Made by a program: the position numbers and the translations under genes. The notes under the pieces are model-generated. The model did not search any database. It worked only from the letters and a program-made list of their open reading frames with translations, and was not told where the DNA came from. Shown in pieces: positions 5,901 through 37,800 of a stretch of 64,000 nucleotides of DNA; the stretch's first letter is position 1, and every line of letters starts with the position of its first letter. This DNA comes from Chondrosia reniformis (Eukaryota > Porifera > Demospongiae > Chondrillida > Chondrillidae): NCBI GenBank assembly GCA_947172415.1, contig OX359199.1:4862001-4926000 (forward strand), read 5' to 3'.

Positions 5901-6862
5901 AGATGTACCATATACGTAAAAAATGGTGTGTTATATTAATCATATGTACGATCTTGTAAGTTCTGTTGCTTGAAAATCATTAATATTTTATATATGAGAT
6001 ATAGCATTTTCATTTATACTGTATTGACATGCATGTCTTACCTGCAGACTTCCACTCTCCCAAAAGGTGGCTCTAATCTCTCCCTACCAAATCAACAATG
6101 ACCTGACAGCATTAGTAAAGACTTTCAAGTAAGGGATAATATAGACTAGACAATACATACTTTAAACTATACAAACCCATAACTTCTGGTTTCACATTTC
6201 TATTTTTGGAGCGACTGAGGATGCAATTGATACATTTGAAATGGAGGTTTAACCAAATTTGTGTTTCCAAGCATTCAAAACTTGTTGAAAATCAATATGT
6301 ATGATTTATTACAGAGTAGACATAGCATGTAAGAAAATGGTGTATTAGATTATTAATGTAGTTGTGTACCTTAAAAACATGTACTATGTACGTACAGCTA
6401 TGTAGCATTTTCTAAGTAGTACCGTATTTAACTCTATTCAGTTTAGAAGCTGACAATATAGTTCTGAAGCCTACAGAATGGATCCTTGCCACAATTATAA
6501 TACTAAAAGTGTAAGTATGTTATTTGAGAATCAGGCTAGACTAGGCTACACATATATATATACGTATATATAAGAGGGAATACATGAAGGGAGCATTGCT
6601 GTGGCAATTGTAGCTCAGTGGCAGAGCACTGGTGTTCATTACCAGCTGTCCTGGAATTTATTCCCACCCATTGCTTCTTCCTGTTTAAGAATGATTACTT
6701 GTGGTTTGATTATCATTCATATGTCTGTTATATATAATTTATAGTTTAGCCAAAGTGAATCCAACCATTCAAGCAATTCTTAAAAATGATCAACTCTTAG
6801 CTCATTTGACAAAGATGAACTTAACTGAGCAAGATATTACACCTTTGATTGATATATTCTGA
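2975..6862 (+). CDS. RPAP2: RPAP2, RNA polymerase II CTD phosphatase (Rtr1 family)
   Basis: Rtr1/RPAP2 proteins bind RNA polymerase II and remove Ser5 phosphate from its C-terminal domain; they also aid polymerase assembly and import. Eight exons fit in phase: 2975-3006, 3137-3248, 3619-3783, 3981-4069, 5064-5660, 6048-6128, 6442-6510 and 6745-6862, giving about 420 residues. The Rtr1 zinc module is plain: 'HYDDIVDER', then 'CGYPLCG', 'DLTERK' and 'KFCSSLHYKAS'. The zinc ligands read C-x4-C...C-x3-H, with His last as in yeast Rtr1, whereas vertebrate RPAP2 has Cys (recalled from family knowledge). The large fifth exon is a low-complexity charged linker. The last exons encode a hydrophobic C-terminal helix region resembling RPAP2. 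Intron 4 holds a minisatellite and intron 5 a hammerhead motif. The gene is convergent with SARNP (131 bp apart). Confidence 0.9.
3843..3898. repeat. Small foldback (MITE-like) in RPAP2 intron 3
   Basis: The ends 'ATTCAAGGGCA' and 'TGCCCTTGAAT' are perfect inverted repeats. Inside them 'ATACCT' and 'AGGTAT' also pair. The whole element is about 56 bp, so it is probably a miniature inverted-repeat remnant. Confidence 0.55.
4138..4690. repeat. 17-bp minisatellite in RPAP2 intron 4
   Basis: About 32 tandem copies of a 17-bp unit of the form GTATATAGACCAATGCT. Variation is mostly AGACC/AGGCC and GCT/ACT, plus occasional units lengthened by 'ACATA'. Because 17 is not a multiple of three and the unit lacks stops on the minus strand, all three minus-strand frames stay open and mimic proteins of up to 185 residues. 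These are artefacts. Confidence 0.95.
5764..5822 (+). ncRNA. Hammerhead ribozyme-like motif (type I) in RPAP2 intron 5
   Basis: The order is GGGUCA, CUGAUGA, a stem II region (AGGGU-GGAAUU-ACCA), GAAA, UAGCUG, UC, UGGCCC. Stem I (GGGUCA with UGGCCC) pairs over all six positions with one G-U. The cleavage triplet GUC is kept. Stem II retains a GGU/ACC helix, but its closing pair next to the core is lost (A opposite A) and one base is extra, so activity may be weak. The short palindromic stem III (GAAA-UAGCUG-UC) matches the copy at 18259. Confidence 0.6.
6590..6725 (+). repeat. tRNA-derived SINE-like element
   Basis: A tRNA-like head carries an A-box-like 'TAGCTCAGTGGCAGAGCA' and a degraded B box (GGAATTTATTCCC). 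It is followed by 'ATTGCTTCTTCCTGTTT' and the tail 'CTTGTGGTTTGATTATCATT'. A relative lies at 39340-39480. It is not a functional tRNA because no cloverleaf or intact B box can be drawn. It lies in the last RPAP2 intron. Confidence 0.55.
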
Positions 6863-11745: not shown

Positions 11746-15103
<3,358 letters not shown>

Positions 15104-17689: not shown

Positions 17690-17970
17690 GAAAGTTTAAT
17701 TTTTTTAGTTAATTGGCAAAAATCACAATCTTCTTTGAAAGGTGACAAAAGCACGGTTCAGTGGACATAGTGCACCCAAGTCTGTTTCTAAAGGAACCTG
17801 CAGTACATGTATGGATGAAAGGAAATGAATTTAGTTTACATAATATATTTCTATACTAGATAATAATACTATATACCTTAGTTAGCCTTAGGCTACCAAT
17901 ACTTAATGTTAGCCTAGATAGCAACCAATACTTAACGTAGGCCTAGCAACCAATTGAATTAATAGCTGTA
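17690..17970 (-). pseudogene. Duplicated P450 terminal exon and flank
   Basis: The block repeats 15385-15560 and then the tandem-repeat flank of 16085-16160, skipping the two internal P450 exons. The copy of the last exon still ends 'FVTFQRRL' and a stop, but upstream residues are altered and shifted. Its right half continues at 18489-18545 after the hammerhead-bearing insertion. Confidence 0.7.
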
Positions 17971-17982
17971 TATAGATATGTC

Positions 17983-18488
17983 TTCATCATTTAACTCTGG
18001 ATATTACCCCTGCCCACTCATGTCTCCTGAGGAGCGCAATGAGCTAATGGGCGGAACCGAAGGGTAATACCCAGAGTTAAATGATGATGACATCGATGCT
18101 CTAAGATCGGCTTTAGATCTTAAAGTTCCCCTATTTTTTTCCATATTTGTGGTCAGCCACACTTTTGGCTGTACCCCATATCTGGAAACCACAAGCTTTT
18201 TTGCTTCTGGGAGTACTTATTAGCAGACTAGCCACTCAAACTTCCATCATATGCCATACTGATGAGTCCTAATAAGGACGAAACAGCTGTCTATGGCTTG
18301 ATCATCTTTTTGAGTGGCTAGGAGGAGACTCTGGTTCCAATCAAGCGAACTTCGGTTCCGCCCATTAACTCATTGCGCTCCTCAGGGGACATGAGTGGGC
18401 AAGGGTAATACCCAGAGTTAAATGATGATGACATCGATGCTTTAAGATCGGCTTTATATAGATCTTATAAAGTTCCCCTATATTTTCC
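17983..18488 (+). mobile_element. Retrozyme-like element with hammerhead ribozyme
   Basis: The insertion interrupts a duplicated segment whose unbroken version is at 16120-16205. It is flanked by imperfect 15-bp duplications, 'GTATATAGATATGTC' (17968) and 'GTATATAGATGTATC' (18489). Inside is a direct repeat of about 75 bp (18062-18135 and 18403-18480, period 341 bp), so it is about one and a half monomers. The first 77 bp (17984-18060) are an inverted copy of 18347-18429. A type I hammerhead lies between the direct repeats. There is no coding capacity. Size, direct repeats, ribozyme and target duplication fit the non-autonomous circular-RNA retroelements called retrozymes. Confidence 0.7.
18225..18322 (+). 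ncRNA. Type I hammerhead ribozyme, apparently intact
   Basis: Every core element is present. Inner stem I is GCCAUA (18253-18258) with UAUGGC (18292-18297). CUGAUGA is at 18259-18265. Stem II is GUCC with GGAC around a UAAUAA loop (18266-18279). GAAA is at 18280-18283, then CAGCUG, and UC at 18290-18291. Predicted self-cleavage is after C18291. Stem III is tiny and palindromic (two pairs and an AGCU loop), which in known metazoan and Penelope hammerheads favours cleavage as a dimer. An outer stem I of about 13 bp, CUAGCCACUCAAA with UUUGAGUGGCUAG, encloses an internal loop that could make the tertiary contact with loop II. Confidence 0.9.
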
Positions 18489-19040
18489 GTATATAGATGT
18501 ATCATGAATCTACAAACTAACCAGTTTCATTTTATGAGCAGAAAGGATGTGTCTTCTAACTCTCCAAGTCTCTCCAAGAGCCTGATTAGGCCTCTTTGTT
18601 TCTTTCCTTCATATATAGACCAAAGGGTTAACACCTGGATTAGCCTGCATGTTATTGATAACACTTTAAGATCATGCACATGCATTACACTTCAACTTAT
18701 ATACCAATCTGTCAGTGAATTTGTCAAAGTACTTTATCAGTATTTGTTTTAGATTTTCTGGATCAGACACAATATAGGCATGACTTAAGCCCATATAAAT
18801 CAAGAATTCATGATCGATACCATTACTTACGGTAATATTTTTGACTATCTAGATACGTATATGTGCATGACGTCATGCCATGCCAGCTATATGGATGTGG
18901 ATAGGACGCTGCTTGATGTCGTTATTATTATAATAATGTAAAGTGAAAAGCCACCAATTGACAGCTAACCAAATTCTACAGTAAAAATATTGTGCAATGT
19001 CATCAATACACATACAATTAGATCTAAAATTGATGTGAGT

Positions 19041-31729: not shown

Positions 31730-31801
31730 CTCCCGTGCCGGGAATCGAACCCGGGCCGCGGCGGTGAGAGCGCCGAATCCTAGCCACTAGACCACACGGG
31801 A
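31730..31801 (-). tRNA. tRNA-Glu (anticodon CTC)
   Basis: A 72-nt tRNA with a perfect acceptor stem (TCCCGTG with CACGGGA, discriminator G), A box 'TGGTCTAGTGGCTAGGA', anticodon loop around CTC in 'GCGCTCTCACCGC', and B box 'GGGTTCGATTCCC'. It closely resembles animal tRNA-Glu(CTC). No intron is present. A T-rich run follows the 3' end, as expected for RNA polymerase III termination. It lies 58 bp upstream of, and divergent from, the ELP2 start codon. Confidence 0.96.
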
Positions 31802-34800: not shown

Positions 34801-37800
34801 AGTTTCAAAACCCAGACCTAGCTTATTTCCCATGTTTATGCCATCAGGGAAACACTTGTGTTTTCAGAACAGATATACAGCAAATGATGTCTGGGTGTAA
34901 GATTATTTACATTTCAATCAGGATTGGCCAGCCCACTTTAGAAACCTACAGCAAATAGGTTTTATCGTTTTTTAATTGTATAAATTCTTTTGCATCATAC
35001 CCCCATTTAGAATTTCAAATGAAAATGGGATCAGTATGAAGTTATATGTATTTTTATTTCTTTGAAAGGAAAACCAGAAGTGGTGCCCACAAGTAGCTCT
35101 AAGTGGCCATTTTGGGTCAGTTTTGGACCTGTCATGGGATCCTCTAGGACTCTTCTTCCTATCAGTGAGCTCTGATCAAACAACAAGGCTACATGCTCCA
35201 TGGAAACAAGAAGACAAAATGGTAGGTTGACAGAATGGTAGGTTGGTTAGCAGACAGAATGGTACATACAGGTTAATATATACAAAGTATAGGATCAACC
35301 TTATATACTGTAGGTACATGTGTACAATGCTGATGAAGACCTTAGGGTCAAAATGTTCAATTCTAAAGAATATTTCTGTTTCTATAGCTCAATAATCATC
35401 AACTAGTGTACTATATTTCCCTTCTTGTTGCTCCTCCGAAGGTCACATGGCATGAGATCAGTCGTCCTCAGGTGCATGGCTATAACATGCAATGTGTTGC
35501 CATGACTACAAGTTCTCAGTTTATATCAGGTGGCGATGAAAAGGTATGCTAAACAATTGACCTTTTGGTAAACAATATACATTACTTCCTATTTCTTTAA
35601 ATGTATTATTACAGGTTTTACGTGTGTTTGAGGCTCCGACTTTGTTTTTTGAAAGTATGAGGAGCATCTCAGGAATTGATCTTTCTCAGGTACACCTCTT
35701 TGACCTCACCTATGAGGTTACAAAACCTATTGGCTATTTGATATAGTGCTTTATAATATGTCTTATATCTTAACATACTTTCTCTTTACCATCTCATCTT
35801 ATTGTATTTTATATATATATGTACCTATACTGTACATACGTATGTACAGTATTATTTAAATATGTATCCATATATGTGTGTATATTTGTGTACTAATGTA
35901 CACTTATTATACATAAACATTGTATACAAAGTGTGGTAAACCTAATAGTGTATATATAGGATAAATAACCTATTACAATGACTGTGTATAATATTACAAT
36001 GTCGAGTAGACGTGTACTGCTGTATCTCTGGGTGCCAGCATTCCTGCTCTCGGATTATCCAATAAAGCAGTACTTTCAGGTATGTATTGTATCTGATAAG
36101 TAGAGAATGTTGAAGGCAGACAATCTTATCTCACGACACATGCTGATCATTACTTCTTTTTCAGAAGCTGTAATTCCAGAGCCAACTGAGGATCAAGGGC
36201 CTGTCAAGAACCTCTTCAGTGACCACCAGATTCCATACTTCATGCCAGTCAAACTAACAGGTGCAGTGTAGCTAGGGGCTCTCTTGTGTTGTATACATAT
36301 GTAGCTAGGGGCTCTCTTGTGTTGTATACATATGTAGCTAGGGGCTCTCTTGTGTTGTATACATATGTAGCTAGGGGCTCTCTTGTGTTGTATACATATG
36401 TAGCTAGGGGCTCTCTTGTGTTGTATACATATGTAGCTAGGGGCTCTCTTGTGTTGTATACATATGTAGCTAGGGGCTCTCTTGTGTTGTATACATATGT
36501 AGCTAGGGGCTCTCTTGCGTTGTTGTATACATATGTAGCTAGGGGCTCTCTTGTGTTGTATACATATGTAGCTAGGGGCTCTCTTGTGTTGTTGTATACA
36601 TATGTAGCTAGGGGCTCTCTTGTGTTGTTGTATACATATGTAGCTAGGGGCTCTCTTGTGTTGTATACATATGTAGCTAGGGGCTCTCTTGTGTTGTATA
36701 CATATGTAGCTAGGGGCTCTCTTGTGTTGTATACATATGTAGCTAGGGGCTCTCTTGTGTTGTATACATATGTAGCTAGGGGCTCTCTTGTGTTGTATAC
36801 ATATGTAGCTAGGGGCTCTCTTGTGTTGTATACATATGTAGCTAGGGGCTCTCTTGTGTTGTATACATATGTAGCTAGGGGCTCTCTTGTGTTGTATACA
36901 TATGTAGCTAGGGGCTCTCTTGCGTTGTTGTATACATATGTAGCTAGGGGCTCTCTTGTGTTGTATACATATGTAGCTAGGGGCTCTCTTGTGTTGTTGT
37001 ATACATATGTAGCTAGGGGCTCTCTTGTGTTGTTGTATACATATGTAGCTAGGGGCTCTCTTGTGTTGTATACATATGTAGCTAGGGGCTCTCTTGTGTT
37101 GTATACATATGTAGCTAGGGGCTCTCTTGTGTTGTATACATATGTAGCTAGGGGCTCTCTTGTGTTGTATACATATGTAGCTAGGGGCTCTCTTGTGTTG
37201 TATACATATGTAGCTAGGGGCTCTCTTGTGTTGTATACATATGTAGCTAGTACGTTAAGAGATCTATGTACGTACGTACTGTACTTGCAAAGTTATCAGT
37301 CTATGCTATATTTAATCAATAATAAAGTACCTGAATAATATGGAGCCACCTTTAAATCTACTAATATAGCTATGTTAATGTTCTGCAAACACTTGTAAAG
37401 TACTACTGTTTTGGGTTTACTTACAGCTGTAAGTCTCCAATAATGTGGATGAAAACTAGGTTGTGTAGCCACTTTGGAGGAGTATGTGTATTTGAAATAG
37501 TTTAGATACCAAAGAGCAGCTTGCTTCATAAATGTTTGTTCTGTATACTCACATATATGTGCCTAAACCCTTACTGTTACATAGCTCCTCCAGTGGAAGA
37601 GACACTTCTTCAAAACACACTTTGGCCTGAAGTTCAAAAGCTGTGAGTTTTTTGAAGAGGATGTTGCCATAGGACAGTGTTTGATTTTGTTAATTTTTGT
37701 AGGTATGGTCATGGGTTTGAGGTGTATTCGGTGGCTGCTAGTTCTGATGGTAAACTGATAGCCTCAGCTTGTAAAGCCTCCAAACCAGAGCATGCTTCCA

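Follow-up and report, generated by a model that had tools for sequence, protein, structure and literature searches.

A hammerhead ribozyme in the sponge Chondrosia reniformis is part of a multicopy retrozyme with an insertion-end pattern like that of Penelope-like elements

A stretch of the Chondrosia reniformis genome (the window; 64,000 nt of contig OX359199.1) contains an apparent hammerhead ribozyme, raising the question of what kind of element carries it and how that element enters the genome. An earlier note described the motif, at nt 18225–18322, as a near-perfect type I hammerhead with an extended stem I, and it is real. The parts named there can be read from the plus strand without a mismatch: an inner stem I of six pairs (18253–18258/18292–18297), CUGAUGA (18259–18265), a four-pair stem II (18266–18269/18276–18279), GAAA (18280–18283), and the GUC whose last base, C18291, is the predicted cleavage position. 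The 13-bp outer stem I said to enclose an internal loop is also present in both sequence and fold, with plus-strand arms of 13 nt at 18228–18240 (5′) and 18309–18321 (3′). Stem III is the palindrome of two pairs that had been proposed, two pairs plus AGCU, within the self-complementary 8 nt sequence ACAGCUGU (18283–18290, plus strand, from sequence and folding). A covariance-model search, suggested in the note as a check, gave a match to the Rfam type I model RF00163 (Hammerhead_1) at 18253–18297(+) that scored 37.1 bits, above the gathering score of 34 (E = 1.1e-5 over 64 kb, both strands). The match covers all 45 model positions and puts the predicted cut between 18291 and 18292; the model does not include the 13-bp outer stem I and internal loop of the sponge ribozyme.

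Folding of the 98-mer gave a z-score of −5.77, and none of 200 shuffles folded equally well. The predicted optimal fold (−39.1 kcal/mol) keeps both stem I helices and pairs part of the core in other ways; constrained to the hammerhead core, the fold is 5.2 kcal/mol weaker, at −33.9 kcal/mol. The ACAGCUGU palindrome is predicted to be able to pair with a second copy (−11.1 kcal/mol). When the core pattern was searched across the 64-kb window with up to three mismatches, two matches were found against 0.00 expected, the 18225–18322 ribozyme without a mismatch and another at 932–957(−) with one. At the level of sequence, the motif is confirmed as a type I hammerhead that is predicted to cleave itself, and the interpretation of the ribozyme in the note is supported. 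The window also carries a tRNA gene at 31730–31801(−) (57.7 bits, above the Rfam cut-off), a match to the C/D-box snoRNA snoR69Y at 13654–13755(−) that lies under the cut-off (38.6 bits against 45), and, at 36267–37250, an array of a 33-bp repeat (about 29 copies) whose higher-order period is 405 bp (100% match).

What the earlier account lacks is that the window hammerhead belongs to a larger insertion, a copy of a retrozyme present many times in the genome. This insertion is about 511 bp long (17978–18488) and has a 10-bp target-site duplication, GTATATAGAT, which flank comparison places at 17968–17977 and 18489–18498. Mapping on the repeat unit, numbered so that u1 is the first base past the cleavage site, resolved two pieces. 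The first is an inverted 5′ piece (17978–18062, minus strand) running from u143 to u59, with its outer end at a position designated site A. The second is a direct piece of about 1.2 units (18062–18488, plus strand) that runs from u112 round to a second position, site B; unit mapping reaches 18486, the final two bases being taken from the sequence up to the duplication. Part of the unit is present twice, at 18060–18118(+) and 18401–18459 (97% identical). With one ribozyme in about 1.2 direct units, this copy could be cut once and would not release a full unit by itself. It contains no reverse transcriptase or GIY-YIG frame, and the open reading frames of at least 100 aa all lie outside 17978–18488.

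The 85-nt inverted arms of the window copy (17978–18062 and 18350–18434) are 94% complementary, and together with the target-site duplication they might indicate an inverted-repeat DNA transposon (MITE or foldback) in which the hammerhead is incidental. Such an origin can hardly be right, given that 12 of 36 insertions of the family have no inverted piece, that the inner junctions are variable and that the units occur in tandem with a length of 350–355 nt. The reading of the arms as a DNA transposon was dropped after the copies had been mapped on the unit.

The genome searched comprises 117.38 Mb in 15 contigs. The family of the window ribozyme (the first family) has 81 exact ribozyme cores genome-wide, against 0 for the reversed control, and the 98-mer has at least 43 genome matches (best 40 of 538 candidates scored). 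RF00163 has at least 65 matches in the sponge genome, at least 51 of them above the cut-off (best 73 of 11,921 candidates scored); the 14 control genomes gave no match, and one scan of viral contigs for the core pattern gave 0 matches. At tandem loci the first-family unit measures 350–355 nt from cleavage site to cleavage site. As a circle it folds at −126.9 kcal/mol, where 50 letter shuffles average −86.1 (sd 5.4). Core letters are altered in 5 of 31 aligned first-family copies (the alignment is without L051, L053, L061, L062 and L063, where the 5′ arm of the outer stem is missing), as might be expected of a relic ribozyme that has decayed and is now inactive throughout the family. That reading is very unlikely: the core is intact in the other 26 copies, the exact cores are numerous, and copies of the 98-mer are 95–98% identical, which indicates a young family.

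A second family is represented by 106 exact cores genome-wide, and its same-strand neighbours (at 100 of the 106 places) are spaced 359–364 bp apart, once 717 bp. Between the two families, stems I and II differ in both of their arms. Across both families, in a set of 14 hand-picked sequences, paired changes were seen in 3 of 12 pairs and in 7 cells; that count of both-side changes was reached by 0 of 500 shuffles for cells and by 28 of 500 for pairs. The same set had 96.4% of cells paired and a covariation of 0.168, each attained in 0 of 500 shuffles, and further pair types, attained in 497 of 500. Within the first family alone, 94.4% of outer-stem cells are paired, with zero double changes. 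The window itself holds a decayed copy of the second family at 919–1092(−); its hammerhead-like motif at 919–963(−) reads GCC in place of GUC and contains a mismatch in stem II, and an inverted piece lies at about 991–1092. By these sequence characters, the element is a metazoan (non-LTR) retrozyme, in a sponge, with a ribozyme that is ordinary for that kind. Among the papers listed by literature searches, none described a sponge retrozyme or analysed the ends of retrozyme insertions.

The ends of the insertions were then compared. Merging of places no more than 2.5 kb apart gave 42 loci, which are the best matches to the ribozyme rather than a random sample. Two second-family loci (L052, L055) were removed, leaving 40 first-family loci mapped on the unit, and removal of flank duplicates (L011, L015, L016 and L079) left 36 independent insertions. 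For L021 and L067 the left end was determined by eye, and unit positions for the end tally were entered by hand. Site A (u136–152) and site B (u182–205) are windows that were defined after the ends were seen, and together make up 12% of the unit. Of the 3′ ends, 34 of 36 lie at A (25) or B (9), the two elsewhere being in L004 and L070, and of the 60 outer ends 54 fall within one of the two windows. Target-site duplications scoring 9 or more flank 22 of the 36 insertions, whereas among 1260 mismatched flank pairs the rate is 1.27%; they are 10–12 bp long in 16 cases and 13–16 bp in the rest.

An inverted piece is found on the 5′ side of 24 insertions, with outer-end pairs of B/A in 12, A/B in 6, B/B in 1, other/A in 4, B/other in 1 and A/A in none. 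Nineteen inverted insertions are informative, having both outer ends at A or B, and 18 of them have one end at each site (P = 3.8e-5 if the odds were even). The one exception is the B/B insertion (L053); a further five inverted insertions have an outer end elsewhere. The window copy obeys this one-A-one-B rule, with its inverted outer end at A (17978), its direct end at B (18488) and GTATATAGAT on both sides. Close opposite-strand ribozymes are oriented −/+ in all 7 first-family and all 10 second-family cases, with no +/− pair (a tally of exact cores only, at 81 first-family and 100 of 106 second-family places). Starts of direct pieces recur at u289–297, near the 5′ arm of outer stem I (L010, L028, L051, L053 and L061–L064), so that several copies have lost this arm; these starts could reflect a reverse transcriptase stop or a single common source copy.

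All 96 ends and direct-piece starts are more than 5 nt away from the cleavage junction, so that circles or uncut multimers, and not cut linear monomers, were the templates. Three direct-only copies are about one unit long and have both ends near site A (L009, 364 bp; L014, 368 bp; L025, 354 bp), which fits one lap of a circle and equally a multimer. Either template, circle or uncut multimer, would be expected to give the same insertion pattern.

Could a LINE have copied the retrozyme? Twin or dual priming would then have produced the inverted pieces, and site A (TGATGATGA) would be a LINE-like repeat end. The genome has at least 150 RVT_1 matches, all reverse transcriptase types together (best 150 of 1688 candidates scored), and dual priming of two RNAs could, according to the available text of PMC2837659, yield 3′-type ends on both sides. 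Standard L1 twin priming, as described there, leaves inverted fragments with an internal deletion, whereas in the sponge the inverted piece often contains sequence that is also in the direct piece. Dual priming also predicts no one-A-one-B pattern, which is nearly without exception here, and a LINE is a rather unlikely source.

Copying by a Penelope-type enzyme, the preferred reading, can be compared with the Penelope-like elements (PLEs) resident in the same genome, where GIY-YIG has at least 38 matches (best 150 of 382 candidates scored). One PLE family, P1, has RVT_1 and GIY-YIG in a single frame (L083, L084). All seven P1 insertions in which both ends and a 10–12 bp duplication could be recognised by eye (L040, L081, L082, L083, L084, L106 and L107) have one short end and one tail end. 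Additional short ends at L082 and L083 were assigned to other copies, and the PLE loci L039 and L044, with one end of each type and no clean duplication, were not counted. The short end of P1 lies directly after CCCAAAGAT or a near match, and the tail is about 36 nt long. This tail holds an inverted repeat, ATAAGGAATCCTTAT, the counterpart of a hairpin predicted in the retrozyme unit between A and B (about u149–u175), though the two have no sequence similarity. In five comparisons of the unit with PLE 3′ ends for shared sequence, the best scores were matched by 6–166 of 200 letter shuffles; an 11-nt match, AGTTCCCCTAT, between the unit and the L085 PLE was discarded, being equalled by 26 of 200 shuffles. 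Five of the seven P1 insertions (L081, L082, L083, L107 and L040) are in ACAACTAGTACATA-type satellite, compared with 1 of 20 random 500-bp pieces, and this satellite is possibly a target preference of the P1 PLE. A satellite target common to retrozyme and PLE was also considered and rejected, with no clear enrichment for the retrozyme (5/36 against 1/20 random pieces and 7/65 distal tiles).

A second PLE family (L085) is abundant. Its representative, L085:2647–6258, has GIY-YIG at frame residues 182–215, near the N-terminus, a position known from Naiad-type PLEs. It carries a hammerhead-like motif at 6068, its copies diverge after TTTTTCAT, and three pairs of copies are 3501 bp apart among the matches listed. 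In the few L085-family copies examined the one-of-each rule was not seen: the family's two pairs of neighbouring copies on opposite strands are +/− and lack a large tail, and a solo copy in L108 shows no inverted piece and no tail.

If the retrozyme behaves as its published counterparts do, transcripts of its tandem copies would be cleaved by the ribozyme into 350–355-nt units, and these would be sealed into circles. A Penelope-type reverse transcriptase with its endonuclease would cut the two strands of the target roughly 10–12 bp apart, and would extend both from two fixed internal positions in the unit RNA, A and B, each strand usually from a different one. The outcome would be a head-to-head insertion with the A-to-B stretch of about 50 nt as a tail on a single end. 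That the element is a non-LTR retrozyme whose circular units are copied by a Penelope-type enzyme from sites A and B is, on balance, probable. Counting against it are the lack of sequence similarity to either PLE, the satellite with no clear enrichment at retrozymes, the L085 copies, the 12 insertions with no inverted piece, the six inverted insertions that depart from the rule, end windows set only once the ends were known and the abundance of other reverse transcriptases. The ribozyme, the unit, the duplications, the two end sites, the one-A-one-B rule, the unbroken cleavage-site sequence and the P1 rule are read from the DNA; cleavage, the circles and a PLE as the enzyme we infer, and with them the step from inserting like a PLE to being inserted by one. 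Our judgement is evenly poised on the wider proposition that the circles of animal retrozymes are copied by Penelope-like enzymes on both strands, from one fixed site each, with the ends recording this and the A–B hairpin serving as docking site.

Retrozymes are a source of abundant small circular RNAs in animals, and in the literature available the enzyme responsible for their return to the genome has so far only been proposed. PLEs were put forward as mobilisers in the accessible text of PMC7229834 and PMC7761336, on the grounds that both carry type I hammerheads, are arranged in tandem and coexist. The one-A-one-B rule, common to the retrozyme and the P1 PLE, adds junction evidence for this proposal. 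An end rule of two fixed sites that also holds in a resident PLE family makes the proposal testable with one protein and one RNA, and it is this end rule, rather than the ribozyme, that deserves the test.

Metazoan non-LTR retrozymes, as far as the available text of PMC7229834 describes them, carry a type I hammerhead in tandem units of 150–450 bp, are non-coding, have duplications of more than 4 bp and share their genomes with PLEs. The sponge element is like them in its 350–355-nt tandem units, its type I hammerhead, its non-coding sequence and the coexisting PLEs, and its duplications, detected in 22 of 36 insertions and mostly 10–12 bp, exceed 4 bp. It differs in its host, as sponge, porifera and Amphimedon are absent from the main text of that paper, and in its head-to-head copies with two fixed end sites, the word 'inverted' being absent from the portion of PMC7229834 available. 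Among PLEs, the purified Anolis enzyme extends on both target strands from two internal starts, with the stretch between them as the tail (PMC11167929, available text), and in a rotifer PLE the tail is optional and lies on one inverted pLTR, with a 9 bp duplication in the example given (PMC3846280, available text). The sponge retrozyme is unlike PLEs in lacking a reverse transcriptase/GIY-YIG frame, in having no sequence similarity to them and in its tail of about 50 nt against about 36 nt in P1. It resembles them in its inverted end piece, its single-end tail, its two internal start sites and a similar duplication length, and PLEs of the sponge genome also bear minimal hammerhead-like motifs. 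Judged by its junctions, the end pattern of the sponge retrozyme is that of a Penelope-type insertion, a likeness in how the element appears to work rather than membership of the PLEs.
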